DNA from: an uncultured Atopobiaceae bacterium
GTDB lineage: Bacteria; Actinomycetota; Coriobacteriia; Coriobacteriales; Atopobiaceae
Length of the DNA stretch: 16,940 nt
NCBI GenBank assembly: GCA_944321005.1
Contig: CALUJT010000279.1
Location: forward strand, 1-16,940
Direction of reading: 5' to 3'
Below, piece by piece: positions 1,956 through 16,539 of the stretch (its first letter is position 1; every line of letters begins with the position of its first letter). The notes under the pieces were generated by a model that did no database searches, had not been told where the DNA came from, and saw nothing but the letters and a program-made list of their open reading frames with translations. A program made the position numbers and the translations under genes.

Positions 1956-2576
1956 CTAATCCTCTGAACTAACCACGGGTCCATCAATCCACCTAACGGT
2001 ATATTCCTCGCCCATGAGCTCGCCAACGTTCTTGACGTAGGACTCGAGCATGCTCTTTGCGCGCTCCCTTGCTTGGCTCTTAAGGGTGTCGTCCTGGTCT
2101 GCCGCCGCCCGCATTTCGCTCTGTGCGTTACCGAGTATCTCGGTTTTCTCCTCGGTAGTGAATCCAGTCATGAAGCCTGTCTCAATGACGGGGTCGGAAA
2201 TCGAGCTCTCATTGACGTTTACGTCTAGAATCTCAGCTTGGGGGAGAGTGATGCTGACGACGTTGGATTGGTCGGGGCCGGAGATGCTCACCTGGGATAC
2301 GTCAACACCCATCTCGACGATCCCGCTGTACTCAAACCAGATTTGCTTGTACCCACTTTCGAAAAACCAGGCAAATGGGCCGTTTGCCTGTTGCTCAGCG
2401 CGCGCGACATTGTGATAGTAGACCTCGAGGGTGGAGAGCTCGCAGATATATCCTGCGTTCGAGAAGCTCGGATCTGGCTTTGTCTCCTCAGGGGCACATC
2501 CGGGGAGGCAGAGCAGAAGTGTTGTGAGGCACGCTGCTGATGCAATTCTCTTCCAGGTTGCGCCGCTACTCCTCAT
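1956..2576 (-). CDS. DUF4230 lipoprotein
   Basis: This 206-aa protein has a type II signal peptide: a basic N-terminus, a hydrophobic core (about 11-24) and the lipobox LPGC with Cys27 as the predicted lipidated residue. It is expected on the outer face of the cytoplasmic membrane. The mature part matches DUF4230: an aromatic YSGIVEMGVDVSQV strand, an ITLPQAEILDVNV strand, then a charged helix (TLKSQARERAKSMLESYVK, about 165-183) and a final strand ending TVRW. The family has no assigned biochemical activity. The start at 2576 is chosen because it gives the lipobox an ideal signal peptide and has GAGGAGG six bases upstream. A longer frame to 2849 is only the shadow of the upstream gene. The start overlaps the end of the upstream DUF4230 gene by 11 bases, so the two are translationally coupled. 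Confidence 0.85.
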   Translation of the reverse strand: MRSSGATWKRIASAACLTTLLLCLPGCAPEETKPDPSFSNAGYICELSTLEVYYHNVARAEQQANGPFAWFFESGYKQIWFEYSGIVEMGVDVSQVSISGPDQSNVVSITLPQAEILDVNVNESSISDPVIETGFMTGFTTEEKTEILGNAQSEMRAAADQDDTLKSQARERAKSMLESYVKNVGELMGEEYTVRWIDGPVVSSED

Positions 2577-3417
2577 TGGTGGCCTCCTCGGACGGCTGCG
2601 CGCTGCTGCTCTCAACGTCATTGGTGGAATCCTGGGAATCTTCTGGCCAGACGAGTTCGTAACCCTTGTTCTCAAGGAGCGGGAGCGTAAGCGCCTGTAT
2701 GGCGCTTTCAAGGTTGATCTTTGCGGTACGGTAGATGTCTCCCTGGCTCTCAATTTCAGCGCGGGCGTCTTCCTTGCAGATGCTAATGATGTCCTTGAGC
2801 TCGAGGTTCGGGTTCCTTGGGATGTAGTCAAAAGACGATTCGTCAACACTCGGGTCGTAGATTGTAATCTCCGGAAGGACGGGGGTGACCGTCATTTCGT
2901 CATTGTCGATACTGAATGTAACGGCAGTGAGATCAATGCCCGCCCTAACCGTCGAGGCGTAGTAGATTCTCTGAGTGATGTTTCCGTTGTCGTCCTTGAT
3001 TTCGGCGATTCCGTTGTAGACGTACTCTGCCGTAGAGAGCTTGCTGATGCTAACGACCTTCTCAAGCTCCGACGTCGAGAGATACTTTAGCCCCTCGCCG
3101 CTCCGCAGCATACCGGGAAGGGCGAGGATGCAAAACCCGATAAGAACGCCGACGCAGATGAGTACTCCCACCAGGCGCTTTGGGGTCAATAGTCCGGAGA
3201 GCGCCTCGTTACGCGCTTTGCGTCGGCGTGTCCGCTCATCCTTGCCCTTTGACTTACGCCTCTCACGCTCTAAGCGAGCCTCCGCCTCGCTCGCTTTCCT
3301 CCGAGCCTCATAGACCCTTTCCTCGCTGAGAGGGTCACGTTCTGTTGTCTTTGCCGAATTGACACCGTGCCCATCGGCTCGCGTATCGTTTTCCGACATC
3401 TGCATGTCGTCTCGCAT
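2566..3417 (-). CDS. Membrane-anchored DUF4230 protein
   Basis: The protein has 283 aa. Residues 1-80 are charged, very rich in Arg, Lys and Glu, and presumably cytosolic. A single membrane helix follows at about 81-104 (RLVGVLICVGVLIGFCILAL). The DUF4230 domain at about 110-260 shows the family pattern: KLSTAEYVYNGIAEI, then a V-R-A-G-I-D-L strand, a TPVLPEITIY strand, a basic/acidic helix carrying ARAEIESQGDIY, and a C-terminal GYELVW strand. An acidic Ser/Glu tail ends the protein. The domain should face outwards. ATG 3417 has GAGG seven bases upstream; ATG codons at residues 5 and 7 are alternatives. It forms a two-gene operon with the DUF4230 lipoprotein downstream (11-base overlap). Function is unknown; the pair may form a surface complex. 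Confidence 0.85.
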   Translation of the reverse strand: MRDDMQMSENDTRADGHGVNSAKTTERDPLSEERVYEARRKASEAEARLERERRKSKGKDERTRRRKARNEALSGLLTPKRLVGVLICVGVLIGFCILALPGMLRSGEGLKYLSTSELEKVVSISKLSTAEYVYNGIAEIKDDNGNITQRIYYASTVRAGIDLTAVTFSIDNDEMTVTPVLPEITIYDPSVDESSFDYIPRNPNLELKDIISICKEDARAEIESQGDIYRTAKINLESAIQALTLPLLENKGYELVWPEDSQDSTNDVESSSAQPSEEATNEE

Positions 3418-3641: not shown

Positions 3642-5450
3642 GTGGATATGCGACTCGAGAACGAGCAGCTTCACTATCGGGCAAGGTTTGAGGTCTTTCC
3701 CTACGACACTCAGAACCCAGCCATGCCCAAGATTCTGCAAATACTCTGGGATTGGCTCCGAAACAAGGAGAGGCGACGCAAAGACGGTGGAGTGCTCGGC
3801 ATCCTCTCGGCGGCAGGAGCTCGTGACGCGTTCTTCGACGGGAGTCTCGAGACTAACTATTCCGGTGAGCTGAATGCCGAGAGTCAAACGAGGCTCGCAA
3901 TCGATGCCTTCGCGTCTGAGAAGGATGGTCGAACCCTCTGGGCTATGGAGTATGACGAGCCTGACTCAAAGGTTTGGTTCAGGCACTGGCACACGCGTGT
4001 GGGGCTTTCGGGAAGTGGCTCGGGTTCCTGCTTGGTCAATGTGAGGATTACCTACTACACGCTTCCGGACTATGTTGGCAGTCCGGGTTTGGTCCCGTTT
4101 GCGAACGTTCCCAACTTTGTTAGGGAGATCGTTGAATTAGGTGCATATCAGTCATGTGTCGGCGAGACGGTCCTCAATCGCGAAGAGACCTACCTCACCA
4201 GCGATAACATCGACGATGAGTTCACGAGTAACCTCCTGAGCGAGCAGAGGGAACTCCCCCTCGTGCTCATGTGCACTGACGAGAGTGGGGCGACTCCTGT
4301 CTGGGACGCTACGGATCTTGCGAAGAAGCTCGTCGGCATGGCCAACGTCTATGTGGCCGATTGGCGAGACAACGAGGTGAGAGAGCGTTTCCGCGAGCTC
4401 TTCCCTAGAGACACTCCGGCATTTCTGTATAGATGCGGAGCGTCGATGCTTAGGATCTATCGCCCGGATATCGATCTCTCCGATTCCAGCGGCTGGCGTG
4501 CCCACGTTTTCTTTCCCAAGGAGCGCATCGACCATTACTGCCAGCGCGGGCAGAACGAGTTCGTTGACACTCTGAGCCGGGGTCTCGGGAGGAGTATCAC
4601 GAAGGGTGAGTCTGACATTCTCGAGCCGGGCGACGTCGAGTGGGTACGGAGCAACAGAGCATCCGAGGAACTGTCGAGGCGCCTCGAGGAGATGAGGGCC
4701 AACAGTCTAGTTGGAAAGCCGGTGGAGGAGGCTGCCGGAACTGGTAAGGAGCGGATAGAGGCGCTGGAGAGGGAGCTGAGGGAGAGTCAGTGGTTCCTCC
4801 AAGAATACGAGAAGGATAACGCGACGCTCAGGGGAACGACCTTCAAGCTCAAGGCGGAGAACGACGAGCTCAACAGTGAGAACTCGGTTCTGAAGTATCG
4901 GCTTAGCTCTGCCGAGGATCGAGCGGATTCCCTCGAGGCGGAGATTGGCGAGATGAAGGGCGCGCTTGCGGCGATCAACGCGCTCGACCGCATGCCCTCG
5001 GGCCTCGTTGAGCTGCTTGACCTCGCAGTGAGCATCTGGCCCTCTCGGATTGTGATACTTGATGACGCTAAGTCGTCTGCGCGGTCGTTCAATGGAGACC
5101 TTAATGAGGAGTGGCAAATAATTAGAAGCGTCGCCACGGTGCTCTGGTCACTCTACTTTGATGACGATGTTATGTCCTGCGACGTGGCGAATGAGTATAG
5201 GGCCAGGTCGGGGTACGAGCTCGCCTTGACCGAAAAGAAGCTGACTAAGGCCGACTCGAAGAAGATGAGCGAGAGGCGTCGGTGGTACAAGGGCGCAGAG
5301 ATTGACATCACACCTCATATCAAGGGGAGGGAGAAGAATCCCAAGTTTGCCTTCCGCCTCCATTATTACGTCGATAGAGATGGCAGAAGAATCGTCATTG
5401 GACATTGCGGGGCGCATCTCACTACCGCTGGAACACAGAAGCTAAACTGA
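3642..5450 (+). CDS. Three-part protein: N-terminal domain, coiled coil, small C-terminal domain
   Basis: I cannot name this 602-aa protein. Residues 1-330 form a folded region with strands such as SCLVNVRITYYTLP and a segment starting LPLVLMCTDESG, followed by DLAKKLVGMANVYVADW and a later MLRIYRP. I recall this order from long uncharacterised bacterial proteins near restriction genes. Residues about 330-445 form a heptad-rich, Glu/Lys/Leu coiled coil. Residues about 548-602 form a compact domain with WYKGAEIDITPHIKGR, RLHYYVD and IVIGHCGAHL. A similar strand-rich tail ends other proteins of this type and might have a RelE-like fold; that is a guess. Start codons are GTG 3642 or ATG 3648; the G-run at 3632-3637 lies 4 or 10 bases upstream. 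The gene stands alone and diverges from the DUF4230 operon. No signal peptide or membrane helix is seen. Confidence 0.8.
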   Translation: MDMRLENEQLHYRARFEVFPYDTQNPAMPKILQILWDWLRNKERRRKDGGVLGILSAAGARDAFFDGSLETNYSGELNAESQTRLAIDAFASEKDGRTLWAMEYDEPDSKVWFRHWHTRVGLSGSGSGSCLVNVRITYYTLPDYVGSPGLVPFANVPNFVREIVELGAYQSCVGETVLNREETYLTSDNIDDEFTSNLLSEQRELPLVLMCTDESGATPVWDATDLAKKLVGMANVYVADWRDNEVRERFRELFPRDTPAFLYRCGASMLRIYRPDIDLSDSSGWRAHVFFPKERIDHYCQRGQNEFVDTLSRGLGRSITKGESDILEPGDVEWVRSNRASEELSRRLEEMRANSLVGKPVEEAAGTGKERIEALERELRESQWFLQEYEKDNATLRGTTFKLKAENDELNSENSVLKYRLSSAEDRADSLEAEIGEMKGALAAINALDRMPSGLVELLDLAVSIWPSRIVILDDAKSSARSFNGDLNEEWQIIRSVATVLWSLYFDDDVMSCDVANEYRARSGYELALTEKKLTKADSKKMSERRRWYKGAEIDITPHIKGREKNPKFAFRLHYYVDRDGRRIVIGHCGAHLTTAGTQKLN

Positions 5451-5652: not shown

Positions 5653-6440
5653 TCACGTGCGCTGCTCGAAGACGCAGTCGTTGTGGTAGTGAATGCAATC
5701 GAGGCTCGGCCAAGTTGACTCGTCGCTTCCCAGTAGGGAGATCTTCCTCCCTTCGAAAGCGTAGAGCCATTGGTCGTTCGTGGGCGTGTGCGGTACGTGC
5801 GAGGAGACCACGACGCGGTAGCGGTCGTCGAGCGTGACGAGGCCGCGGTCGAAGGCTCGGTCATGCAGCGCGTTCAGCAGGAGGCCGTTCGACGACATGA
5901 GTCGCTCGCTCGGCGTGGCCGCCGCCCATGGCTTGATGTGGCTCGCCGTGAGGAGGGCGGGAATGTCTATGCCCGAGAGGCAGCAGGTGCCGCCGTAGTT
6001 GGCAAGAAGCACGTTGCGGAATTAGTCCTGGTTGACGCGCGTGCGAACCCGCTCGACGCGTTCCAACCCGAGCTGCTTCTCCGTGGGTGGGCGAGAAGAA
6101 CCGGGGCTCTCAATCTCGCCGTCGTAGGAGATTTGGATCCCGATTTGCTCGAGTTCCCATATCGCCTCGGACATGGTCTCGTCCGGGTTGGCAAGGTACT
6201 CGTTTATGACCTGTCGGTCCATACCAGCGGTGTTGGTGAAGCCGAGACCAGTTCGGTTTGGGTCGCACGCCTTGAGGTTGGCAATCTTGAAGCAGGCAGC
6301 AGACTCTGTGCGTCCGATCTCTCTGGCAAGAAGCTGGATCTCGGCATCGTTATCGTCCCAGTTCTTTCGGGAAAGGGAGGGCACAGGTAGAAGGCGAGCG
6401 CCATGAGGGTCTCTTGACGTGACCAGTTCCTGCGGGACAT
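5653..6440 (-). pseudogene. HNH_2 endonuclease gene broken by a frameshift and a stop
   Basis: The gene starts at ATG 6440 (AGGAGG five bases upstream) with SRRNWSRQETLMALAFYL. After about 20 codons the reading frame moves by one base, between about 6360 and 6385. It continues as EIQLLAREIGRTESAACFKIANLKA, the usual N-terminal domain of this family. The same frame then meets an in-frame TAA at 6022-6024 and carries on directly as FRNVLLANYGGTCCLSGI. After that come ASHIKPW and NALHDRAFDRGL, the HNH_2 (PF13391) core, ending at 5653. The total of 788 bases is one short of 263 codons, matching a single-base loss plus one nonsense change. Intact relatives are nucleases often linked to restriction systems. 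An active protein is unlikely unless both lesions are sequencing errors. Confidence 0.85.
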
Positions 6441-6564
6441 CGTTCCTCCTCTCATCTGCGCCTAGGATACCAGGTGCGGACGGCAACGCGTTTGTGTCTA
6501 TCTCCTGCGCTCACTGTTGTCTGCTACCGTTTAGTTGTCCCTAATACTCTTCTAGGAGCCCACC

Positions 6565-6900
6565 ATGATCTTCTCGGACGTCCAGCACGAGGCCCTTGCA
6601 TTTCGCGACGAGCGCGACTGGCTGCAGTTTCACAACCCCAAAGACCTTGCCATCTCAATCGCGCTCGAGGCGGCGGAGCTCCTCGAGTGCTTTCAGTGGA
6701 GTGGTGCCGACCTTGATCCGTCTGATGCCAAGGAACGAATCCGTGAGGAGCTCGCCGACGTCATGATGTACTGCATCTATCTCGCAGACGTCGAGGGGAT
6801 AGACATCCCGGTAGCGTTGCACGACAAGATCAAACGCAACGCCGAGCACTATCCCGCCGATAAGGCAATTGGTTCGGCCAAGAAGTACACGGAGCTTTAG
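6565..6900 (+). CDS. MazG-like nucleotide pyrophosphohydrolase
   Basis: This 111-aa protein matches the short MazG-like, all-alpha NTP pyrophosphatase family (dCTP pyrophosphatase type), which splits nucleoside triphosphates into monophosphate and pyrophosphate. The metal-binding pattern is present: E35-x2-E38 with E41 (LEAAELLECFQW) and E62-x2-D65 (REELADVMMYCIYLAD). Length is normal for the single-domain form. The ATG start has AGGAG six bases upstream. The gene converges on the GIY-YIG/DUF2075 gene with eight bases between the stop codons. I recall this protein class beside DUF2075 genes in other genomes, which suggests a functional link such as nucleotide depletion or clean-up during phage infection. 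The substrate cannot be read from the sequence. Confidence 0.9.
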   Translation: MIFSDVQHEALAFRDERDWLQFHNPKDLAISIALEAAELLECFQWSGADLDPSDAKERIREELADVMMYCIYLADVEGIDIPVALHDKIKRNAEHYPADKAIGSAKKYTEL

Positions 6901-6908
6901 GATCCGGC

Positions 6909-9017
6909 CTACAGCTCGCCTGCTTCCTGTGCCCTCAGCAACTCCGCCTGAAGCTCCGGGTCAACGGCAAACAGGTAGAGGCCGTGGACGCCACGCTTGA
7001 GAAGCACGCTCAGCTCGTTTCTGAGGTTCATCTCGGAATAGTCCAGCGTGCCGTTCCTTCTGTTCGTGGCCTGGGAGTTCTTGCTCGAGGAGGCGTCGAA
7101 GCAGATCTTGCCGTCGCGGAACTTCACGGATGGCCCGATGATGACGCCGGCGAAGTTGAGGTCAAACCCCTGGATCGTATAGGTCGAGCCAATCTCGTCG
7201 ACGGTCTCGGGCTTCTCGGCCCAAGCCGTCTCCTCCTCCAGCTTTGAGGAGCTTGGGTGGACGAGGCAGTAGTTCCAGGGATGGCAAAATCTTGTCGAGT
7301 TGGCGGCGTCGGCGCCCTTCTCGAAGCCCTTGTCGTCTTCCTCGGAAAGCCCCATTCTCCACGTTCCGTCGTACTCTAGGTGCAGCTCAACGTTCCACAT
7401 ACCGTCAGGATCGAGCTCGTTTTTCGCCTTGTTCTTGTATGCCCAGTCGTAGGTGGCAAGGACGCGGGACAGTCCCTTGTCCTCCGCCTCGCTTGTCTTC
7501 TCCTTGATGGCCAAGAAAAGGTTGACGGGGGATGAGAAGACCTTGATCTCGTAGGCGTCGCGGACCTTCTTTTTTCCCTTCCATTCTGCATGATCGCGGG
7601 GAATGGCGCCGATGTGGCGTCCGGCGGCGAAGTCCTCGATCCACCTGATGACTTTGTCACTCGCGGAGATGCGCATCTGCTGCTTGAGGAGAATCGAGGA
7701 GCGGAGGAAATGCTCACCTGTCTTTAGTGTCGTATCCTCGCCCTCGTGCCAAGAGGAGTTGTCGGTGGGGGAGAGAAGTGTCGCAAGGTCGTCTGCGTCC
7801 CACTGCTGTGACGACTGGAGAATCTGAGCGGGATCAAACACCGCGACGGTCACCTTGGCGCGGCGCATGATGTCCAGCAACATGTTCTTGCCCTGATAGC
7901 CCTGATTGCCCTGGGTGAGCAGGAGGTGCGCCTCGTCGATGAGGACGATGTCGGCACGTCCATTGGGCTTGTTGATGTCGCGCTGGCCGCTAATCGGATT
8001 GCCCTCTTCGTCCAACTTGGGCTCGCTGAAGGACCTGATGAACGAGGTCGGCTTCTGGACGACTTCTCCTGTCTTCTTCTGGAGGCCGAGTTTCTTGGCG
8101 ACTTGGTTGTAGACGTGGCGCTGCTCGTTGTGCTGGATGAGGACGTATGCGGTGACACCTTCTTCCTTGCTGTCCTCAGCCTCGTCATCATCGTCGATGA
8201 CCTCTCCTTTGATGGTCACCTCCCGTGACAGCCGGTTGAAGAGATGGCTGATAAGAACCGTCTTGCCGGTGCCGGCGGCGCCTTGGACGAGGATAAGCTG
8301 GCCAAAGTCTCCGTCGACTAGGTGATCCTCGGCCGACTGCCTAGACAGGGCCGCCCTCGTCGCGGCAAGAATCTCCTCCTCGGCGGTATGCTGCTCCTTG
8401 GTGAGTTGGTGGAAGGGGGACGCCTTGAACAGCGCAGAGTCCCGGATGACGCTCTCCAGCGGGAAGAGCTCGGGGTTGCGCTTGTGGAGCGCCTTCCAGG
8501 TCTTTGAGAAGATGTCTTCGAACTCGTATTGGGGGTAGTAGCTGCCCTGAGCGTTCGCACGCCTGTTGTTGAGCTGCTTGACTGCGTCGACGCCGAGAAG
8601 GTACTGCATCATACGGTTCTCGACGTCGAGCGTCAGGGACTTGTTGAAGTGGGCGTTTCCGATGATGTACTGTCGGACGGACTCGGGATCGCTCTCCGCC
8701 TGTGCGGCGAGCTCGCGCCAGTCTTCGCGGGACTTGGCATCCGGCCCAAAGTGTTGATAGGTTCTCGAGACAATGTCGTTGGTCTCACCGACGTAGGCTA
8801 GGTACTCGTTTCTGTGGCCGCGTCGGTTCTCGTCCCGTGAGTAGATGACGTAGACGGTGGGGTAGTCAAAGATGAATTCAAAATCCTTGAACCGGGGGTG
8901 AGCCTGTTTGAAGGCATCCCTGCTGAAGTTCCAGCATTCAACCTCGGTGATGACGGGTGCTGGGATGCGGTTTCTGAGACGGCTCACGGACGATCCAATC
9001 GTTGGGGTATATGGCAC
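6909..9017 (-). CDS. GIY-YIG nuclease fused to DUF2075 helicase-like ATPase
   Basis: The protein has 702 aa. The N-terminal GIY-YIG domain (about 50-160) has VYVIYS (55-60), YVGET (75-79), an Arg at 85, catalytic-type Glu133 and the LNNR loop at 149-152. The DUF2075 (superfamily 1-like) ATPase follows, with Walker A GAAGTGKT (246-253), Walker B VLIDEAH (358-364), a later TIQGFDLNFAGVIIGP motif and the C-terminal LLKRGVHGLYLFAVDPEL strand typical of the family. An acidic insert (about 274-286) follows Walker A. It is expected to move on and cut nucleic acid in the cytosol. GIY-YIG/DUF2075 proteins are frequent in defence islands. The start is GTG 9017: an in-frame stop lies about 40 bases upstream with no other standard start codon between, and the ribosome site is weak. 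Confidence 0.9.
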   Translation of the reverse strand: MPYTPTIGSSVSRLRNRIPAPVITEVECWNFSRDAFKQAHPRFKDFEFIFDYPTVYVIYSRDENRRGHRNEYLAYVGETNDIVSRTYQHFGPDAKSREDWRELAAQAESDPESVRQYIIGNAHFNKSLTLDVENRMMQYLLGVDAVKQLNNRRANAQGSYYPQYEFEDIFSKTWKALHKRNPELFPLESVIRDSALFKASPFHQLTKEQHTAEEEILAATRAALSRQSAEDHLVDGDFGQLILVQGAAGTGKTVLISHLFNRLSREVTIKGEVIDDDDEAEDSKEEGVTAYVLIQHNEQRHVYNQVAKKLGLQKKTGEVVQKPTSFIRSFSEPKLDEEGNPISGQRDINKPNGRADIVLIDEAHLLLTQGNQGYQGKNMLLDIMRRAKVTVAVFDPAQILQSSQQWDADDLATLLSPTDNSSWHEGEDTTLKTGEHFLRSSILLKQQMRISASDKVIRWIEDFAAGRHIGAIPRDHAEWKGKKKVRDAYEIKVFSSPVNLFLAIKEKTSEAEDKGLSRVLATYDWAYKNKAKNELDPDGMWNVELHLEYDGTWRMGLSEEDDKGFEKGADAANSTRFCHPWNYCLVHPSSSKLEEETAWAEKPETVDEIGSTYTIQGFDLNFAGVIIGPSVKFRDGKICFDASSSKNSQATNRRNGTLDYSEMNLRNELSVLLKRGVHGLYLFAVDPELQAELLRAQEAGEL

Positions 9018-9105: not shown

Positions 9106-9312
9106 TCATTGGATGAACTTAAGGATTGACCAGGCGGGCTCGTAGCTTGTTGGGCTGATTTGATAAACGCCGAAGTCATAGATCAACTGATTGTTGGGAG
9201 GTGGCCCGCGCGAGGAGACCTTCGTGTGACATCGGCCGCCGCGCTCGATGCGCCCGTCATCGAATGCACGATCTTGGAAGGCGCGAAACTGCATTCCATT
9301 GAACGCGTCCGA
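9106..9312 (-). pseudogene. 3' remnant of a second HNH_2 endonuclease gene
   Basis: Read on the minus strand, the codons encode FNG, then FQDRAFDDGRI, KVSSRGP, NNQLIYDFGVYQIS and a stop at 9106-9108. This aligns along its length with the C-terminal third of the HNH_2 pseudogene at 5653 (NG, LHDRAFDRGL, VVSSHVP, NDQWLYAFEGRKIS). Everything upstream of the NG motif, including the ASHIKPW half of the active site, is missing. The conserved His of LHDRAFD is Gln here. The copies are diverged at base level, so they are relatives rather than a recent duplication. Homology ends near 9312, just before the promoter-like region of the helicase operon, suggesting that the incoming operon replaced the 5' part. 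Confidence 0.65.
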
Positions 9313-9316
9313 TTTT

Positions 9317-9330
9317 CTATAACTTATAGT
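9317..9330 (+). promoter_or_regulatory. Candidate -10 region with overlapping palindrome
   Basis: Two -10-like hexamers, TATAAC (9318-9323) and TATAGT (9325-9330), overlap a perfect inverted repeat CTATAA-C-TTATAG (9317-9329). This is the most AT-rich spot ahead of the helicase operon and 66 bases from the preferred start codon. A TTGAAC at 9299-9304 is poorly spaced for either box. The palindrome could be an operator, but no regulator gene is seen nearby. Confidence 0.35.
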
Positions 9331-9395
9331 GCGTGATTACTGTGACGGCTTCGGCTCTCTGTGAGAAAATGAATGTTAGCGGGACAAGGAGGTCT

Positions 9396-11312
9396 ATGAA
9401 GCATTGGGAGATATGTAACGACGAGCTAGTTCTAGTTGCCGACACCGGCTTTGTTAAGCATGTCTCATCGTCGTTTGTATATAACGCTATGGGCGTCGGC
9501 TCTGGCTCTGCTCAAGATGCTCCCGATCCGCGTGGCGATCTCCCCGACCTTCACTTTTCTAAACGAGGCCTCTCTATTTCCTTTAGCGCCTCGTTCCACG
9601 ATGGAAAGTTCAGCCTCCTTCCAAAGGCTTCCAAACTCGGAAAACCCGTACCACTCGGTAAGCTTCCAATCCCGCTTCCTGATCATGTTGTCGCAGATGG
9701 CGTTTGGTACTTCATCAATGATAACGTCGCTCGTTTGAACGAGATCCTCGCAGCTACGGGGGTAAGTAGTTTTGGCCCCATCTCCCTCGTGCAATATCTT
9801 CAGCTCGTTTCGATGGACCATGCGGGGGAATGTGTCTCCATCAACGACGATCTTGTTGACGTCGCCAAGCGTAGCTCCTCGTTTTCCGACTTGGCCGTTC
9901 CGCCGCTCCTCAATGCCAAGCTATATCCCTATCAGCTTATTGGATATGGGTGGCTTAAATTCATGGCCGAACAAGCCGATGGCTGCGTGCTTGGAGATGA
10001 GATGGGTCTGGGCAAGACCCTTCAGGTGATTGCCCTACTGCTTGCGAGGCATGATGAGGGGCGTCGGACCTCTCTAGTCATTGCGCCTGTTTCACTACTG
10101 GAAAACTGGCGGCGCGAGTTTGCACGGTTTGCGCCGACGCTAGATGTTTTTATCCATCATGGCTCAGATAGGCCCGGGTGGGTTAAGACGCTCGAGACCC
10201 ATGATGTGGTGGTTATGTCTTATGGTACTGCCATTAGCGATTTGGGCATGCTTGCTATGGGTAATTGGGACGTGCTAGTCCTCGATGAGGCGCAGGCGAT
10301 TAAAAACCCCGACTCTCGACGCAGCATTTCTATCAAAAGGATTTCCAGGGCGTTCGGCATCGCGGTATCCGGAACCCCCTTCGAAAATCATATCCTAGAT
10401 GTTTGGGCGTTGTTTAACTTCGTGGAGCCGCCCCTTCTGGGGGATCGCGATGGGTTTACTGCTGAATATCCCGACAATTTGGAGGGGGCTGCGAAGCTCG
10501 AGGGGAGCATATCGCCGTTTATCCTTCGGCGCACCGTCTCTGAGGTTGCTGACGATTTGCCGCAGAAAATGGTTATCAATGTGCCACTTACGCTGCTGGA
10601 CTCCGAGGCAGAGGCTTACGAGGAAATCAGACGGCTGGTTGTTGAGGAGGCCGGAGGGGCCGGAGCCACTCTTGCTTCGCTTACCCGGCTCAGGATGTTC
10701 TGCACCCATCCCTTCGTTCTCGACGATTCGTTTGGCGTCGGGGGGAATGCTCTGCCGGCCAACCCAATCTCCGTCTCCTCGAAATATGGCTACCTCTGCA
10801 CGCTTCTCGAAGAGATTATCTTGCGCGGCGAGAAGGCTCTTATGTTCACATCTTATCGGAAGATGCTCGCGCTTTTGAGCCGTGATCTTCCCTCTCGTTT
10901 CGGCGTGAGCGTCTTCGAGATTGACGGCTCAACTGACCCGAAGTTGAGGCAGTCGATCGTTGACGAGTTCTCCGCCCAAGAGCAGCCTTCCGTTCTTGTT
11001 CTAAATCCCACGGCCGCTGGTACTGGCCTGAACATCACTGCTGCCTGCAATGTCATTCATTACAATCTTGAATGGAATCCGGCGAAAGAAGATCAGGCTA
11101 CAGCTCGCGCATATCGACGTGGCCAAGAAAGGCCCGTTAGGGTGTATCGACTTTTCTATGTCGGAACAGTCGAGGAGTCAATTAAGGAGCGGATGGACCT
11201 CAAGCGGGAAATGGCCGGTAAGGCTATCGTTGGTACGGACGGGGATAGTGCAGATCGTGAAGCTATCATCCGCGCGCTCTCCCTCTCCCCCGTAAGGAGC
11301 CAAGAACAATGA
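9396..11312 (+). CDS. SNF2-family (superfamily 2) helicase/translocase
   Basis: The protein has 638 aa from ATG 9396. Residues 1-170 are a family-specific N-terminal region with LPIPLPDHVVADGVWYF. The SNF2 ATPase starts at LYPYQLIGYGWLKFM, then motif I GDEMGLGKT (about 200-208), motif II DEAQ (about 297-300), motif III SGTPFEN (about 325), the ILRRT hallmark, and a C-terminal helicase lobe with TSYRKM, NPTAAGTGLNIT and motif VI QATARAYRRGQ (about 566-577). It should translocate on double-stranded DNA and remodel protein-DNA complexes. ATG 9396 is chosen for the AAGGAGGT just before it, although spacing is short; GTG 9333 and ATG 9369 are in-frame alternatives. Its stop overlaps the next start as ATGA. 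It is the first gene of a four-gene operon whose codons end in A or T more often than those of the methyltransferase pair. Confidence 0.9.
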   Translation: MKHWEICNDELVLVADTGFVKHVSSSFVYNAMGVGSGSAQDAPDPRGDLPDLHFSKRGLSISFSASFHDGKFSLLPKASKLGKPVPLGKLPIPLPDHVVADGVWYFINDNVARLNEILAATGVSSFGPISLVQYLQLVSMDHAGECVSINDDLVDVAKRSSSFSDLAVPPLLNAKLYPYQLIGYGWLKFMAEQADGCVLGDEMGLGKTLQVIALLLARHDEGRRTSLVIAPVSLLENWRREFARFAPTLDVFIHHGSDRPGWVKTLETHDVVVMSYGTAISDLGMLAMGNWDVLVLDEAQAIKNPDSRRSISIKRISRAFGIAVSGTPFENHILDVWALFNFVEPPLLGDRDGFTAEYPDNLEGAAKLEGSISPFILRRTVSEVADDLPQKMVINVPLTLLDSEAEAYEEIRRLVVEEAGGAGATLASLTRLRMFCTHPFVLDDSFGVGGNALPANPISVSSKYGYLCTLLEEIILRGEKALMFTSYRKMLALLSRDLPSRFGVSVFEIDGSTDPKLRQSIVDEFSAQEQPSVLVLNPTAAGTGLNITAACNVIHYNLEWNPAKEDQATARAYRRGQERPVRVYRLFYVGTVEESIKERMDLKREMAGKAIVGTDGDSADREAIIRALSLSPVRSQEQ

Positions 11313-11764
11313 CAAGTTGCCCTAAATCAATCGCCAAAGTTCTGAGTCCAAACGACACCGGTAGCAGCGGTAGCCATCAGGCGGGTATATTGATTCCAAG
11401 AAAGACTGACATCCTTTCGTTTTTCCCGGAGTTGAGCCACAGCACCAAGAACCCTAGAACGCAGATTCCTTTTGTCGATAGCCGTGGTATGCGATGGACC
11501 TTCACGTTCATCTACTACAACAACAAGTTCTTTGACCCCTCAGGGACGAGGAACGAATACCGTCTGACCGGGATGACGAGATTCCTGCGCGAGCGCGGAG
11601 CAGAGCCTGGCGACAAGCTTGTCTTCAGGCGCGATGAGAACGATTGCTATAGCGTTGAATTGGAGCGTCAGAGGAAGTTGGTCAGTAACCGGTCCATTGA
11701 TTCAGTTGGCAGGGTACACATCTCCATCTGCCCTACAAACTCTTGGAAGATTGTTGAGATCTGA
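11309..11764 (+). CDS. Stand-alone EcoRII-N-like DNA-binding protein
   Basis: The 151-aa protein resembles the N-terminal effector domain (EcoRII-N, pseudo-barrel fold related to plant B3 domains) of type IIE enzyme EcoRII, without any nuclease domain. It keeps both conserved arms: SPNDTGSSGSHQAGILIP (about 13-30; [18 protein letters not shown] in the full enzyme at 15340) and GTRNEYRLTGMTRFLRERG (about 79-97), which corresponds to the R-x-E-x-R/T DNA-contacting segment of EcoRII. GDKLVF then precedes a final strand. It probably binds a short DNA sequence and could be the specificity subunit for the helicase/MORC/HNH complex. The start overlaps the helicase stop by four bases (ATGA), with AAGGAG nine bases upstream. 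The last 40 residues (from about 112) have no evident counterpart in EcoRII. Confidence 0.8.
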   Translation: MTSCPKSIAKVLSPNDTGSSGSHQAGILIPRKTDILSFFPELSHSTKNPRTQIPFVDSRGMRWTFTFIYYNNKFFDPSGTRNEYRLTGMTRFLRERGAEPGDKLVFRRDENDCYSVELERQRKLVSNRSIDSVGRVHISICPTNSWKIVEI

Positions 11765-11784
11765 GCAACGATAGGAGGAGCGTC

Positions 11785-13401
11785 ATGTCGGAGTTCGATT
11801 CATCAGCTAAGACCATTTCCAACCCGCCTGATCCTGCACGAATCATGGACGGCCTCAGGGATACTGGTTATGACTTCAACACCGCCGTCTCAGATATAAT
11901 TGATAATTCTATTGCTGCAGACGCTAGCGAGATATACGTCCGCGTAGAAGCTGATCCCAATATGAACGTCACTGTCACGATCTCCGACAACGGGATTGGG
12001 ATGGATTACGACGGTCTGAAGAATGCTATGAAATACGGTTCCGATAAGCGCCCCGACGCCAAGAGCCTCGGCAAGTTCGGCCTCGGTCTCAAGACTGCCT
12101 CCACTGCGTTCTGCAAGAAGCTCTCCGTCGTCTCACGCCCTGCAGCGGGTGCCGAAACGCTCAAGGTCTGCTGGGACCTTGATTTCATCAGCAGAAGGAA
12201 CGACTGGTCGCTTCTGGTCCCTGAGGTTACTGAGGATGATCTTGAACTGCTTGATCAGGCGGCAAAAGGTGCCTCTGGCACGGTCGTGATTTGGGAGAAC
12301 ATAGATCGGCTCTTCAGTCGCTCGTACAGTACTCAAGCTTATGCTCGTAAAGTATTTAATAAAATTATATCCGGTCTGCGTGATCATATCGAGCTGGTTT
12401 ATCAGCGCTTTTTGGATAGGCGGTTCGAAGACGTGCAGAACGTTAGAATTTGGCTTAACGATGAAGAGGTGAGGCCCTTCGATCCCTTCTGCACGGATGA
12501 AGACAAGACGGCGCTACTCCAAGATGGGGTTCTCGATATCGAGGGGACGAACGTCTCTCTAGTCGTCAAGGCATATCTGCTTCCCCGGAAAGACGAATTC
12601 TCAACAAAAGAGGCAGCAGCAAGGTCTAGGCTCGGTAACGACACTCAAGGGTTTTATGTCTATCGCGAGAACCGCCTCATCTACTTTGGTAACTGGATGG
12701 GCATGTTCAAGAACGAGCCTCACTTCTCGTTGCTCAGGGTTGAGGTCTCATTCGATCATCTTGCTGACGACTATCTGAATGTCGACATCAAGAAATCCAG
12801 GATTATCTTCAATCAGTCGATTTACGATACTCTCCAAAATGAGTTCCTTCCTGCACCGCGTCGCCAAGCGGAGCAGCGTTACAGGCAGGGGACCATTGCC
12901 GCCGTGAACAAAACGGGCAAGACGCCGCACGATGCGGCCAACAAAACGATCGAGAGCAAGGCCCCTCATGCAGAGTCTTCCAAGACGACGATTCTTGATG
13001 AGTCCAGCAATCAGGTCAGGGTTGATAACAAGAACGGCTCTGTCGTGACACGAATCAAAATCAGGGGCAGCGAGGATGGAGCGATGAGGGTTATTCCCGT
13101 CGAATCTATCGAGTACAACGCTCTCTGGAATCCAGTCATTGCCGATGGCAAGCACGCAGTTGAACTCAACATGAGCCACCCGTATTACCAGAAGGTCTAC
13201 TATCCGCTGCTCGGCAGGCCAACCTCCATTACTGGTCTCGACGCCCTCTTTTGGTCGCTTGCGGAGGCTGAACTCGGCTCCTTTACCCAAGATTCGAAGG
13301 AGTTCTTCGAGGATATGCGCTTGGGTACCTCGAGGAATCTCAGCAAGCTCATAGCAGACCTGCCAGATCCCGACATTTCCGATGAGGACCCCGAGGCTTA
13401 A
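11785..13401 (+). CDS. MORC-like GHKL ATPase
   Basis: The protein has 538 aa. The Bergerat ATP-binding fold is clear: N box SDIIDNSIAA (36-45), G1 box SDNGIGM (67-73) and G2 box GKFGLGLKTAS (96-106), followed by a transducer-like (S5) region to about 350. Residues about 365-400 form a charged linker. The C-terminal part contains HPYYQKVYYPLL, as in prokaryotic MORC/paraMORC proteins. These are expected to dimerise on ATP binding and clamp or loop DNA. Comparative work (Iyer, Abhiman and Aravind 2008) placed them in restriction-type neighbourhoods with SF2 helicases and endonucleases, which is the arrangement seen here. The position of the usual catalytic Glu in the N box is Asp37, apparently family-typical. 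ATG 11785 has AGGAGG six bases upstream. It follows the EcoRII-N gene by 20 bases and precedes the HNH gene by 2. Confidence 0.9.
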   Translation: MSEFDSSAKTISNPPDPARIMDGLRDTGYDFNTAVSDIIDNSIAADASEIYVRVEADPNMNVTVTISDNGIGMDYDGLKNAMKYGSDKRPDAKSLGKFGLGLKTASTAFCKKLSVVSRPAAGAETLKVCWDLDFISRRNDWSLLVPEVTEDDLELLDQAAKGASGTVVIWENIDRLFSRSYSTQAYARKVFNKIISGLRDHIELVYQRFLDRRFEDVQNVRIWLNDEEVRPFDPFCTDEDKTALLQDGVLDIEGTNVSLVVKAYLLPRKDEFSTKEAAARSRLGNDTQGFYVYRENRLIYFGNWMGMFKNEPHFSLLRVEVSFDHLADDYLNVDIKKSRIIFNQSIYDTLQNEFLPAPRRQAEQRYRQGTIAAVNKTGKTPHDAANKTIESKAPHAESSKTTILDESSNQVRVDNKNGSVVTRIKIRGSEDGAMRVIPVESIEYNALWNPVIADGKHAVELNMSHPYYQKVYYPLLGRPTSITGLDALFWSLAEAELGSFTQDSKEFFEDMRLGTSRNLSKLIADLPDPDISDEDPEA

Positions 13402-13403
13402 AA

Positions 13404-14228
13404 ATGCCTTCGCCGCTTGAGATAAAACTAGCCGAATATCTTTACGACGCTTTCCGAGTCGAATTCGACGCAAAGATTAGTCGCACCGATGAAGGCATCT
13501 CCATTGCTGCGCGGCCCTCATCGACCGCTCGAGATCGCATGTGGATGGAGTGCTTCTTTCATAACTCGATTCGACTTGGCATTCGTGCTATACCGGAGTC
13601 AGCTAGCGCTCCATTCTTTGAAACCATGGCCGGCTCCGATCTGAAGCACCGGATGCGCTGCTCTGAAGATATCCTTAAGTTGCTGGAAGATGTGCATGAT
13701 CTCCACTTTATGGTCGGCGAGGTCGATCTCTGCGAGACTCCTGTAACCGACTGGCCGGATCCTTGGCCCAGCCTTCTCTTCGATGTTGTGGTCTGGCCCG
13801 TGCCGCCCCTCGAGGGCTTTGATGCTTTGGTGGAATACAGTTTTGATTGGTTGCGCAAGGCTTTCGTTCCTTTTTTCGACCTTCTAGATATCGAGTTCGA
13901 AGTTCTAGGTTTTGCGGAAGGGGAATGCCAGCGTTCGCTCGTCAACAAGTACGAGCGTGACGAGAGGAACAGGAAGCTATGTATTGAAGCGAGGGGGTGC
14001 CGCTGTGCAATCTGCGGATTTGATTTCGAAAAGAGCTATGGCGAATTAGGGAAAGGGTTCATCCACGTCCATCATATTGTTCCCGTTTCAAAGATCGGGC
14101 CGAACTATATCATCGATCCTGTCAAGGATCTAGTCCCCGTTTGCCCCAACTGCCACGCGATGCTTCATAGGGTCGATCCGCCGATGGACCCCGATGTGCT
14201 TTTGAAAATCATTGGCGACAATCGGTAG
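13404..14228 (+). CDS. HNH endonuclease, last gene of the helicase/MORC operon
   Basis: The 274-aa protein has a unique N-terminal half (1-180, rich in acidic and aromatic residues) joined to a C-terminal HNH domain. After the linker LVNKYERDERNR the domain shows C201-x2-C204 (CRCAICGF), the GKGFIHVHHIVP core with H221, H223 and H224, D238 and DLVPVCPNCHAMLH with C247-x2-C250 and H251. The four Cys form the usual zinc site, and the His and Asn residues the metal-dependent cleavage site. It should nick or cut DNA. Its position two bases after the MORC stop, with GAGG seven bases upstream of the start, suggests co-translation and a joint complex: ATPase and helicase prepare the target and HNH cleaves. 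Family members of this type often sit beside restriction genes (McrA-like context). The N-terminal half is not recognised. Confidence 0.9.
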   Translation: MPSPLEIKLAEYLYDAFRVEFDAKISRTDEGISIAARPSSTARDRMWMECFFHNSIRLGIRAIPESASAPFFETMAGSDLKHRMRCSEDILKLLEDVHDLHFMVGEVDLCETPVTDWPDPWPSLLFDVVVWPVPPLEGFDALVEYSFDWLRKAFVPFFDLLDIEFEVLGFAEGECQRSLVNKYERDERNRKLCIEARGCRCAICGFDFEKSYGELGKGFIHVHHIVPVSKIGPNYIIDPVKDLVPVCPNCHAMLHRVDPPMDPDVLLKIIGDNR

Positions 14229-14372
14229 AAGTTTTGCCTCTTTGGTTCATCCGTGAGGGGAATCTGTCGACGAGATGCCCTTTATCTCTTTCTCGCGCTC
14301 GTCCGCTGTAGCATTTTTTGTCCGGTCGATGGCATATCATGTCTATCTGTTGTTAACGCGGAAAAGGAAGCC

Positions 14373-15356
14373 ATGCCCGACTACACCTTCATAGACCTAT
14401 TCGCGGGAATCGGCGGCCTGCGGCTCGCGATGGAGTCCGCCGACGCCTGCTGCGTATACTCGAGCGAATGGAACAAGTTCAGCAGGCAGACCTACGAGGC
14501 AAACTTCGGAGAGGTGCCCGACGGCGACATCACGCAAGTACCAGCCGACGAGGTTCCCGACCACGACGTACTCGTCGGGGGCTTTCCATGTCAGCCGTTC
14601 TCGGTTGCGGGCGTCTCGAAGAAGCGTAGCCTCGGTCGCGCGACGGGCTTCGAGGACGAGACGCAGGGGACGCTCTTCTTTGATGTGTGCCGCATACTCG
14701 ACGCAAAGAGGCCCAAGGCTTTCTTCCTCGAGAATGTAAAGAACCTCACGAGCCATGACCACGGCCGCACGTTCGAGGTCATCGAGCAGTCCCTCGACTC
14801 GCTCGATTACGATGTCTTCTACCGAGTGCTCGACGCTCAGGACTATGTGCCCCAGCACCGGGAGAGAATCGTCATCATTGGCTTCGACCGCAGGCGCTAC
14901 GGCAATGGCCCAGAGTTCTCCTTCGACCTTCCCAAGCCGGAGATAAAGCCCGTGCTCGCTGACATTCTCGAGCACGATGTCCCCGAGAAGTACACGCTCT
15001 CGGACAAGCTGTGGGCGTACCTGCAAGCCTATGCTGCCAAGCACCGTGCCGCCGGGAACGGCTTCGGATACGGACTCGCTCGCCCCGACGGCGTCGCCAG
15101 AACGCTCTCGGCCCGCTATCACAAGGACGGCTCGGAGATTCTCATCCCCCAGGATGGAAGGAACCCGCGCCGCCTGACCCCTCGCGAGTGCGCGCGGCTG
15201 CAGGGGTTCCCGGACAGTTTTGTCATTCCGGTTTCCGACACTCAGGCCTACCGCCAGTTTGGCAACTCCGTCGCCGTGCCCCTCATGAGCGAGGTGGCGA
15301 AGGAGCTCGTCGCCGAGCTGAGGAGGCTGGACGAGGGAGATGGGCATGGAGATTGA
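14373..15356 (+). CDS. dcm: Dcm/EcoRII-type DNA (cytosine-5) methyltransferase
   Basis: The 327-aa enzyme transfers a methyl group from S-adenosylmethionine to C5 of cytosine. Motifs are in order: [13 protein letters not shown] (8-19), [11 protein letters not shown] with catalytic Cys73, [11 protein letters not shown] (E120, N121, V122), [15 protein letters not shown] (161-171), [17 protein letters not shown] (266-280) and [13 protein letters not shown] (293-304). The target-recognition region (about 190-262) has [16 protein letters not shown], as in the CCWGG enzymes Dcm and M.EcoRII. M.EcoRII and Dcm are about 470 aa with an N-terminal extension; this protein begins directly at motif I, so any autoregulatory N-terminus is absent. 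ATG 14373 is chosen for AAAGGAAG just upstream and for motif I; the frame is open back to 14253. It overlaps the EcoRII-type endonuclease gene, its cognate partner. Confidence 0.95.
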
Positions 15357-16539
15357 TCTTGCCGCCAAGGCGATAGAGACGACTCAGTCCGGGTTCGAGA
15401 CCTACTTCAAGTTCCTCTCCGCAAACGACTCAGGCGCGACCGGCGCCCACCAGTCGGGGATTCTCCTGAGCAACCGGGCAATGCCGATGATATTCGGCGA
15501 CCGCCCGACGGAGCACGTCGCCAAGCGCGAGAACATGCGCATAACCTGGCAGGATGACGTGGTCACCTACAGTACCTTCACGTGGTACGAGAGTAAGGGC
15601 GAGCTCAGGCTCACCCGACTCGGGCGCGGCTTTCCCTATCTCAATCCCGACTTTACCGGTGCCCTGTTCGTCTTCACCCGCGTGGCGGAGGGCGAGTACG
15701 AGGCCTTCCTTCTCAACAGCGAAGACGAGATCGACCGCTACCTCGCCGCCTTCTCGCTCGGCCCGCAGGATGCAGGGCAGATGTTCGACCCCCTCGCCGG
15801 CCCGAAGAGTCACGAGGACGCCGAGGAGGCGGCAATCAGGGCCTTCGTCAGATACCTGGGCATCGGGGCAAACTCGGATTTCCCGCTCTCCGAGACGATC
15901 TCCGGCAAGGCGCGCGAGATCCAAAATGCCGTCCATGACCGCCGAGACCTCATCGTAGAGAACCCCGACCTCAAGGTCATCGAGTACACGCGCGTTGAGT
16001 ATGCGATCTTCCGCGAGGTTGAGGCTCAGATGTACGGCCCCATCATCAGCAGGGGCTTCGACACAGTGGAGCAGTTCGTCTCCGTCGCCAACACCGTCCT
16101 CAATCGCAGGAAGAGCCGTGCGGGCAAGAGCCTTGAGCATCATCTCGCATCTATCTTCCACGACAACAGTCTCCCCTTCGAAGAGCAGGTGGTAACCGAG
16201 GGAAACAAGAAGCCCGACTTTGTTTTTCCTTCGGGGGCGGCATATCATGACCCGTCGTACTCGGCGGACAAACTCGTTGTTCTTGCGGCGAAAACGACTT
16301 GTAAAGACCGCTGGCGCCAGATAATCACGGAGGCCGACAGGATGAGGGATCGGACTCACTTCCTCATGACGCTTCAGCAGGGCAACACCCCACGTCAGCT
16401 TGAGGAGATGCGGGCGGCGAACGTGAAGCTCGTCGTTCCGAAGCCCTACATCAAGGCGTATCCACCTGAATTTCAAGACGAAATATGGCCGCTCAAGCAG
16501 TTCATCGAGTATGCCAAGGAAACCGTCTGCTCGCTCTAG
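15340..16539 (+). CDS. ecoRIIR: EcoRII-type type IIE restriction endonuclease
   Basis: At 399 aa the protein is full length against R.EcoRII (404 aa). The N-terminal EcoRII-N effector domain (about 20-140) has [20 protein letters not shown] and [11 protein letters not shown]. The C-terminal catalytic domain (about 190-395) has [26 protein letters not shown], then [10 protein letters not shown] with D293, AAYHD with Y302, [11 protein letters not shown] with K318 and K322, and TEADR with E331. These match D299, Y308, K324, K328 and E337 of EcoRII, so the active site looks intact. The expected target is CCWGG, with two sites needed for efficient cutting, as known for EcoRII. ATG 15340 and ATG 15346 are both possible; GAGGGAG sits immediately upstream of the first and six bases from the second. 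It overlaps the methyltransferase by 11-17 bases, linking restriction to modification. Confidence 0.96.

Follow-up and report, generated by a model that had tools for sequence, protein, structure and literature searches.

Organization of the locus

We analysed a 16,940-nucleotide stretch of DNA from an uncultured Atopobiaceae bacterium (contig CALUJT010000279.1 of assembly GCA_944321005.1; the whole stretch is hereafter called the window), in which four closely packed genes for a SNF2-type ATPase, a free EcoRII-N protein, a MORC ATPase and an HNH nuclease are followed by a Dcm-type methyltransferase and an EcoRII-type endonuclease. Our subject is the four-gene cassette and its relationship to the methyltransferase/endonuclease pair; on sequence evidence, we favour a reading in which the cassette is probably the ATP-dependent restriction arm of a restriction-modification system. 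The six genes and the roles proposed for them are listed below.

9396..11312, + strand: SNF2/SWI2-type SF2 ATPase, 638 amino acids (Pfam SNF2-rel_dom, Helicase_C; motif patterns)
11309..11764, + strand: free EcoRII-N (B3-type DNA-binding) protein, 151 amino acids; proposed specificity subunit (Pfam EcoRII-N, 2.0e-14)
11785..13401, + strand: prokaryotic MORC (GHKL + S5) ATPase, 538 amino acids; proposed ATP-gated clamp/looping subunit (HATPase_c_3, 5.2e-30)
13404..14228, + strand: HNH nuclease, 274 amino acids; proposed cutter (Pfam HNH, 7.7e-08)
14373..15356, + strand: Dcm-type C5 cytosine methyltransferase, 327 amino acids; proposed to set the mark that protects against both effectors (DNA_methylase, 1.6e-94)
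15340..16539, + strand: EcoRII-type endonuclease, 399 amino acids; proposed optional second effector (EcoRII-C, 2.1e-56; EcoRII-N, 2.8e-14)

The gene identities and spacings proposed in the initial annotation were confirmed by their coordinates and by Pfam support for each gene. SNF2 and EcoRII-N overlap by 4 bases, gaps of 20 and 2 bases separate EcoRII-N from MORC and MORC from HNH, and a 144-base gap precedes the Dcm start codon (ATG at 14373), with Dcm and EcoRII overlapping by 17 bases. The SNF2 gene starts at an ATG (9396) with AGGAGG just upstream, and an alternative GTG further up would place its start at 9333; the Pfam scores (SNF2-rel_dom 1.4e-53, Helicase_C 2.2e-18) were obtained from the 9333 start, both domains being recovered again from 9396. 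The Dcm/EcoRII pair has a Type IIE layout, with an endonuclease containing EcoRII-N and EcoRII-C adjoining a Dcm-type C5 methyltransferase, and no C5 methyltransferase other than this Dcm was found in the window's own assembly (85% complete). Dozens of loci from different phyla repeat these adjacencies, so the arrangement is not a product of chance.

Conservation of the four-gene cassette

A genome collection was scanned with a MORC alignment, and the best 80 of 218 relatives were kept, which together with the window gave 81 MORC-anchored loci; because of this selection, the set is biased towards close relatives of the window MORC. Genes were labelled using profiles (MORC, EcoRII-N and HNH) or single-sequence searches (SNF2, Dcm and EcoRII). 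The counts, taken over every labelled reading frame (with a threshold of ≥100 bits for C5 methyltransferase and ≥60 bits for HNH), depend on the single-query searches and suffer from contig ends.

The proposal that the four genes form a conserved module was borne out by this co-occurrence check: SNF2, MORC and HNH stand together in 74 of the 81 loci and all four genes in 57, and other genomes clearly keep the set intact. Hosts of the full set include Bacillota, Pseudomonadota, Actinomycetota, Bacteroidota, Acidobacteriota, Verrucomicrobiota, Planctomycetota, Spirochaetota and one archaeon, in whose locus the SNF2 and EcoRII-N genes are both split in two. EcoRII-N was recognised in 59 loci and lies directly after SNF2 in 57 (with a 4-base overlap in 27), and HNH lies directly after MORC in 76 of 81. 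The usual order is SNF2-EcoRII-N-MORC-HNH, with MORC-HNH-SNF2-EcoRII-N in five of the 49 Dcm-bearing loci that were mapped; the gene orders are thus built from two fixed pairs, SNF2-EcoRII-N and MORC-HNH. An Eggerthellaceae locus (L074) carries two MORC genes around one HNH (SNF2-MORC-HNH-MORC), without EcoRII-N.

Of 140 genomes from the family to which the window belongs, 3 gave a MORC match at E ≤ 1e-50, namely the window's own genome and two others at 34–38% identity, so the module is patchy in that family. Correlations of gene distances were high among the four genes (r 0.70–0.86) and lower with Dcm (0.40–0.53) and EcoRII (0.44–0.52). Permutations in this mirror-tree analysis reached the observed values in 0 of 500 trials for every pair except EcoRII-N with EcoRII (1 of 500), a result in which co-evolution is not separable from shared ancestry; from it we therefore use only how the four genes differ from Dcm/EcoRII.

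A constant methyltransferase and an optional endonuclease

Among the 45 loci extending 7.5 kb or more to each side of MORC, 43 carry a C5 methyltransferase, the exceptions being L055 and L081. In the 33 four-gene loci flanked to this extent, a C5 methyltransferase is found in 32 and EcoRII in 11; across all 57 four-gene loci the figures are 50 and 15, six of the seven loci without a methyltransferase being on short or cut contigs. The Dcm-type methyltransferase is therefore the constant partner and EcoRII an optional gene; EcoRII was accordingly rejected as a core component. The methyltransferase itself occupies at least six positions and orientations relative to the four genes. Over 49 loci, those with the common gene order have it on the strand of the cassette, either upstream (18) or downstream (14), or on the opposite one, again upstream (5) or downstream (6), and those with the other order have it upstream (4) or downstream (1); in the one remaining locus (L035), the methyltransferase was called inside the module owing to a weak HNH fragment. 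The association between cassette and methyltransferase has been re-made more than once.

Comparison of the window with a Collinsella locus (L002) delimits the shared unit.

9358..14223, + strand: block common to the window and L002, corresponding to the four-gene cassette (blastn, 87.2% over 4868 columns)

This block starts 38 bases before the SNF2 start and stops 5 bases before the HNH end, its blastn-derived ends being approximate, with faint likeness slightly further upstream. Beyond it, the sole other match between the two loci runs from Dcm gene to Dcm gene (65%, blastn). The L002 Dcm is 64% identical to that of the window at the protein level and carries a helix-turn-helix region at its N-terminus; labelling gave no EcoRII in L002. 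Furthermore, Collinsella aerofaciens (L103) and genome G180 (L099) hold a Dcm and a Type II endonuclease with no cassette in the stretch examined. From these comparisons, the window cassette abuts a Dcm/EcoRII pair of a kind that stands alone elsewhere. Other close module pairs follow the same pattern, with MORC and Dcm distances of 0.07 and 0.31 (L051/L056) and of 0.01 and 0.35 (L014/L016). The border stretches 9301–9400 and 14171–14290 share no 9-mer, and no search aimed at transposons was made.

Across the exchange, the Dcm target motifs persist. The target-recognition region of the window Dcm is 56% identical to that of E. coli Dcm (38/68) and 66% to that of L002, and both the window and L002 proteins keep GNGFG(Y/F)G and TLSARYxKDG, as in E. 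coli Dcm. Dcm is isospecific with M.EcoRII (PMC12707154), and EcoRII cuts CCWGG (PMC4081073); given the 56% identity to E. coli Dcm, CCWGG is probably also the target in the window.

These data bear on whether the four genes depend on the methylation mark at all. As an independent defence, they would sense a cue other than Dcm methylation (DNA ends, replication intermediates or phage proteins), Dcm lying nearby since restriction islands gather such genes, or EcoRII-N parking the complex on host CCWGG sites. The varying position and strand of Dcm, its weaker distance correlations and the resemblance of SNF2 and MORC to components of other defence systems would all suit this explanation, which we nevertheless consider unlikely in view of the C5 methyltransferase kept in 32 of 33 well-flanked four-gene loci and the target motifs retained by exchanged Dcms. 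The initial annotation had offered both a shared mark and an independent system; of these, the near-constant adjacency of a Dcm-type methyltransferase favours the shared mark, and independence has become the less favoured option.

Vsr, which accompanies Dcm in 21 of the 50 four-gene loci with Dcm, raises a different prospect, in which the module would serve repair or mutation avoidance for deaminated 5-methylcytosine (5mC) at Dcm sites, in the manner of MutL/Vsr and with MORC acting as MutL. MORC is indeed MutL-like, and Iyer et al. 2008 (PMC2292703) discuss, in the portion consulted, some relatives recruited to repair. More than half of the four-gene loci with Dcm have no Vsr, however, a separate SNF2 with an HNH nuclease and a sequence reader is typical of restriction, and the module is patchy within the window's family; such a maintenance role appears improbable.

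The free EcoRII-N protein and a possible substitute

The family profile of the free EcoRII-N protein matches EcoRII-N in PDB 3hqf (E 1.3e-13), the window protein carries NDTGxxGxHQAG and TRNEYRLT, and NCBI has a name for this small protein. It had been singled out in the initial annotation as the unusual element of the cluster, a view we abandon, as it is a standard neighbourhood member already listed by Iyer et al. 2008 (PMC2292703, in the portion consulted). Since the 81-locus set had been found through MORC, EcoRII-N-anchored searches were added. MORC adjoins 16 of 16 free EcoRII-N genes recovered in this way (15 apart from L097, which is apparently the same as L050 of the MORC-anchored set). 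On plasmids, the 14 EcoRII-N-matching records comprised nine annotated free EcoRII-N proteins, four Type II endonucleases and one HNH endonuclease; all nine free proteins have a MORC match within 3 kb, and the four loci inspected contain SNF2, HNH, Dcm and Vsr without exception, with a Type II endonuclease in two. Viral contigs yielded six EcoRII-N loci, five of them free and all within the four-gene module with Dcm, the sixth being a full-length EcoRII. Samples of 398, 398 and 395 genomes from three phyla gave 25 genomes matching EcoRII-N, with at most nine candidates scored per genome, so misses are possible. Three were known centres; of the further 22, a strong free EcoRII-N was seen in two (L096 and L097), in both cases within the module with Dcm, and the remaining 20, G910 (described below) among them, had longer frames, mostly of EcoRII length (393–436 amino acids), including four weak matches (G955, G975, G987 and G1248).

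Sequence variation in this protein appears to go with that of the methyltransferase. TRNE is kept in 118 of 120 EcoRII-N homologues, these being the closest 120 of 1139, and the 59 free EcoRII-N proteins of the MORC-anchored set have TRNExRxT in 53 cases and RNExRxT in one, a stretch in common with EcoRII. A Dcm hit is present in 47 of these 54 loci and bears one or both Dcm-type target motifs in 46, the remaining hit being only a 100-amino-acid fragment. RNExRxT is missing from five proteins, those of L043 (in pieces), L004, L007, L008 and L042, and the last four coincide exactly with the set of loci in which two C5 methyltransferases stand in tandem and have neither Dcm target motif (the two of L007 give 25–27% in the target-recognition comparison). 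EcoRII-N and METHYLTRANSFERASE thus seem to change together, as would be expected of a specificity subunit, and the modules of L004, L007, L008 and L042 perhaps recognise another target sequence.

Where EcoRII-N is absent, another protein often takes its place. In 16 SNF2+MORC+HNH loci without EcoRII-N, an unrelated protein of about 271 amino acids, termed c1, is encoded directly upstream of SNF2; a C5 methyltransferase is present in all 16 and EcoRII in none, and c1 occurs with EcoRII-N in 0 of 81 loci.

L010:662-1474: c1 example, with 16 further loci

One locus at a contig end (L073) reads c1-SNF2-MORC. A c1 protein tried against Pfam and one tried against NCBIfam gave no match, and fold searches with a predicted structure (predicted local distance difference test, pLDDT, 77.8) returned nothing convincing. 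We infer that c1 may act in place of EcoRII-N, as a subunit for specificity or loading.

In two further loci EcoRII-N stands ahead of an HNH_2 nuclease within one protein, on the Thauera aminoaromatica plasmid pTha01 and in genome G910.

L104:5923-6924: EcoRII-N/HNH_2 fusion, beside Dcm
L098:6974-7915: EcoRII-N/HNH_2 fusion, beside Dcm

The Pfam EcoRII-N score passes the cut-off of 25 bits in G910 (37.1) and fails it in Thauera (20.4), and HNH_2 is a different HNH family from that of the window. These proteins show EcoRII-N and an HNH cutter joined directly, with Dcm alongside.

The SNF2, MORC and HNH proteins

All catalytic motifs sought by pattern were found, apart from the MORC N-box, and the residues searched for in SNF2, HNH, Dcm and EcoRII are those we take to matter for activity. 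SNF2 has GLGKT, DEAQ, SGTP and RAYRRGQ. The MORC family profile matches human MORC2 (E 8.8e-08), and the GHKL motifs DNGIG and GLGLK are present; the N-box residue Asp37, invariant in 21 sequences, aligns to a Glu of human MORC2. In the S5 domain, GFYVYRENRLI at residue 289 conforms to GhXhhpXXRhl (G289, R297, L298 and I299 invariant in 21 sequences), described as the motif uniting prokaryotic and eukaryotic MORCs (Iyer et al. 2008, PMC2292703, in the portion consulted).

The HNH protein combines an N-terminal domain of unassigned role (about residues 1–165) with an HNH part in which C201, C204, H223, H224, C247, N249, C250 and H251 are invariant across 71 aligned sequences, and whose nearest solved relative is EcoKMcrA (6ghc, E 2e-07). 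This kinship would fit a Type IV-like system, in which HNH would cut modified DNA and the module would attack DNA with foreign methylation; PADLOC's only hit for the HNH protein is likewise a Type IV methyl-directed model (2.3e-05), and the source name '5-methylcytosine-specific restriction protein A' appears on 6 of 120 homologues among the matches listed. The likeness is limited to the HNH part, however, and an enzyme cutting 5mC at the Dcm site would, with a Dcm encoded next to it, turn on its own host, making this the least probable explanation that we weighed.

Proposed function

We consider it fairly probable that the four genes make up the restriction arm of a restriction-modification system that depends on ATP and whose mark is shared with the Dcm/EcoRII pair. 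Briefly, the free EcoRII-N protein would bind the unmethylated Dcm target, predicted to be 5'-CCWGG, and recruit the SNF2 motor, whose gene the EcoRII-N gene almost always follows. SNF2 would hydrolyse ATP and translocate, remodel or strain the DNA; MORC, acting with the HNH partner encoded directly after it, would close on the DNA as an ATP-gated clamp or looping subunit, positioning and licensing HNH, which would make the cut. The adjacent Dcm would methylate the same site and protect the host. Because the same Dcm in the window would also protect against EcoRII, one mark would guard against two effectors, EcoRII being the optional second one. Gene content, order, conservation, borders and the Dcm-type methyltransferase kept through swaps are observed, and complex formation, target sequence, restriction and division of labour are predictions from them.

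In favour of this restriction arm we count the four-gene set (57/81), the methyltransferase (32/33), free EcoRII-N beside MORC (16/16), the distance correlations within the four, Dcm exchange with kept motifs, the RNExRxT pattern, the EcoRII-N/HNH_2 fusions and the precedent of CglI/NgoAVII (below). Several observations weigh against it. Sixteen loci run without EcoRII-N. L055 and L081 (the latter with SNF2 and MORC only) have no Dcm within about 10 kb, the best Dcm of each genome, 63% identical to the window's in both, lying on another contig. The covariation of EcoRII-N with the methyltransferase amounts to one event, since the four loci concerned form one clade in a quick MORC tree. Equal specificity of the free EcoRII-N and EcoRII is not supported, as the N-domain of the window EcoRII lacks TRNE (it has KGELRLT in place of TRNExRxT, and RNExRxT is lacking in 11 of 16 EcoRII proteins scanned). 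With Asp in its N-box, MORC may hydrolyse ATP weakly; the HNH domain resembles a methyl-dependent enzyme (EcoKMcrA); and the case is one built from sequence.

The four-protein set is compact and widespread; since both its target site and its off-switch (Dcm methylation) can be predicted, it is testable in a laboratory E. coli dcm-minus/dcm-plus pair. Should this reading hold, a MORC ATPase would gain a defined substrate, and a B3-type domain would be seen to work as a separate, swappable specificity subunit.

Neighbouring genes

Upstream of the cassette, the window holds the following genes.

1956-3417, - strand: pair of neighbouring DUF4230 proteins
3642-5450, + strand: 602-amino-acid coiled-coil protein, matching the PADLOC candidate defence model HEC-07 (4.5e-30) and, weakly, NsnC
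5653-6486, - strand: HNH_2 nuclease reading frame broken by one in-frame stop
6565-6900, + strand: MazG-like protein
6909-9017, - strand: 702-amino-acid protein divergent from the cassette, carrying a Schlafen group 3 helicase domain (3.5e-76); a GIY-YIG match close to the N-terminus is weak (8.9e-04) and misses its cut-off

Comparison with known systems

EcoRII is a single polypeptide that requires no ATPase. The Dcm/EcoRII pair of the window resembles the Type IIE system of EcoRII (PMC4081073, in the portion consulted), the free protein corresponding to the EcoRII effector domain alone. Likeness to Zorya (ZorD), DISARM (DrmD) and Dpd (DpdE) is confined to the SNF2 ATPase, and likeness to MZA to the MORC, which is related to the GHKL ATPase MzaB (NCBIfam, E 3.4e-55, distant and below the curated cut-off). 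These systems were rejected, as only SNF2 or MORC resemble them and all NCBIfam matches of both fall under the curated cut-offs (ZorD 250 of 1500 bits; DrmD 61 of 610 and 90 of 950); over the nine window proteins scanned, the other hits to Zorya, DISARM and Dpd models were to methyltransferase models only, e.g. DrmMII. BREX was likewise set aside, with only a weak PADLOC hit of SNF2 to BrxH. No PADLOC or NCBIfam model claims the four-gene module (MORC being a distant MzaB and SNF2 a distant ZorD), and no experimental study of it was found among the matches listed in the literature searched.

The window fits the second group of MORC neighbourhoods described by Iyer et al. 2008 (PMC2292703), in which MORC occurs with a SWI2/SNF2 helicase, an HNH or EcoRII-like nuclease and, in some cases, a VP1/RAV (B3-type) protein, cytosine methylases and Vsr being frequent companions, and for which those authors proposed DNA looping by MORC; the free EcoRII-N protein is its VP1/RAV-type member. 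The two nucleases are alternatives in that description, whereas the window has both. The portion of that text consulted gives no cassette borders, Dcm swaps, specificity covariation or EcoRII-N substitute. Relative to it and to the literature searched, and as far as our searches go, the new elements are the cassette borders, the methyltransferase swaps with the target motif kept, the EcoRII-N/methyltransferase covariation (one event), the c1 substitution, the N-box Asp and the proposal that EcoRII is a further effector sharing one mark with the cassette.

More tentatively, the cassette could represent a distinct ATP-dependent restriction architecture, in which an exchangeable free specificity subunit (mostly EcoRII-N, in others the unrelated protein of about 271 amino acids) attaches to a SNF2 motor and to an HNH nuclease gated by MORC, and which is able to borrow a nearby Dcm-type methyltransferase, including that of a simple Type II pair, giving one mark and two effectors. 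CglI/NgoAVII (PMC4267653, in the portion consulted) provides a proven case of ATP-dependent restriction with a C5 methyltransferase, a B3-like domain and an SF2 ATPase that is needed for site-specific cleavage, all three of which have counterparts in the window. Its nuclease is of the PLD type, for which Pfam gave no match in the window proteins scanned, and is fused to the B3-like domain, whereas the window has an HNH nuclease and a free B3-type protein.

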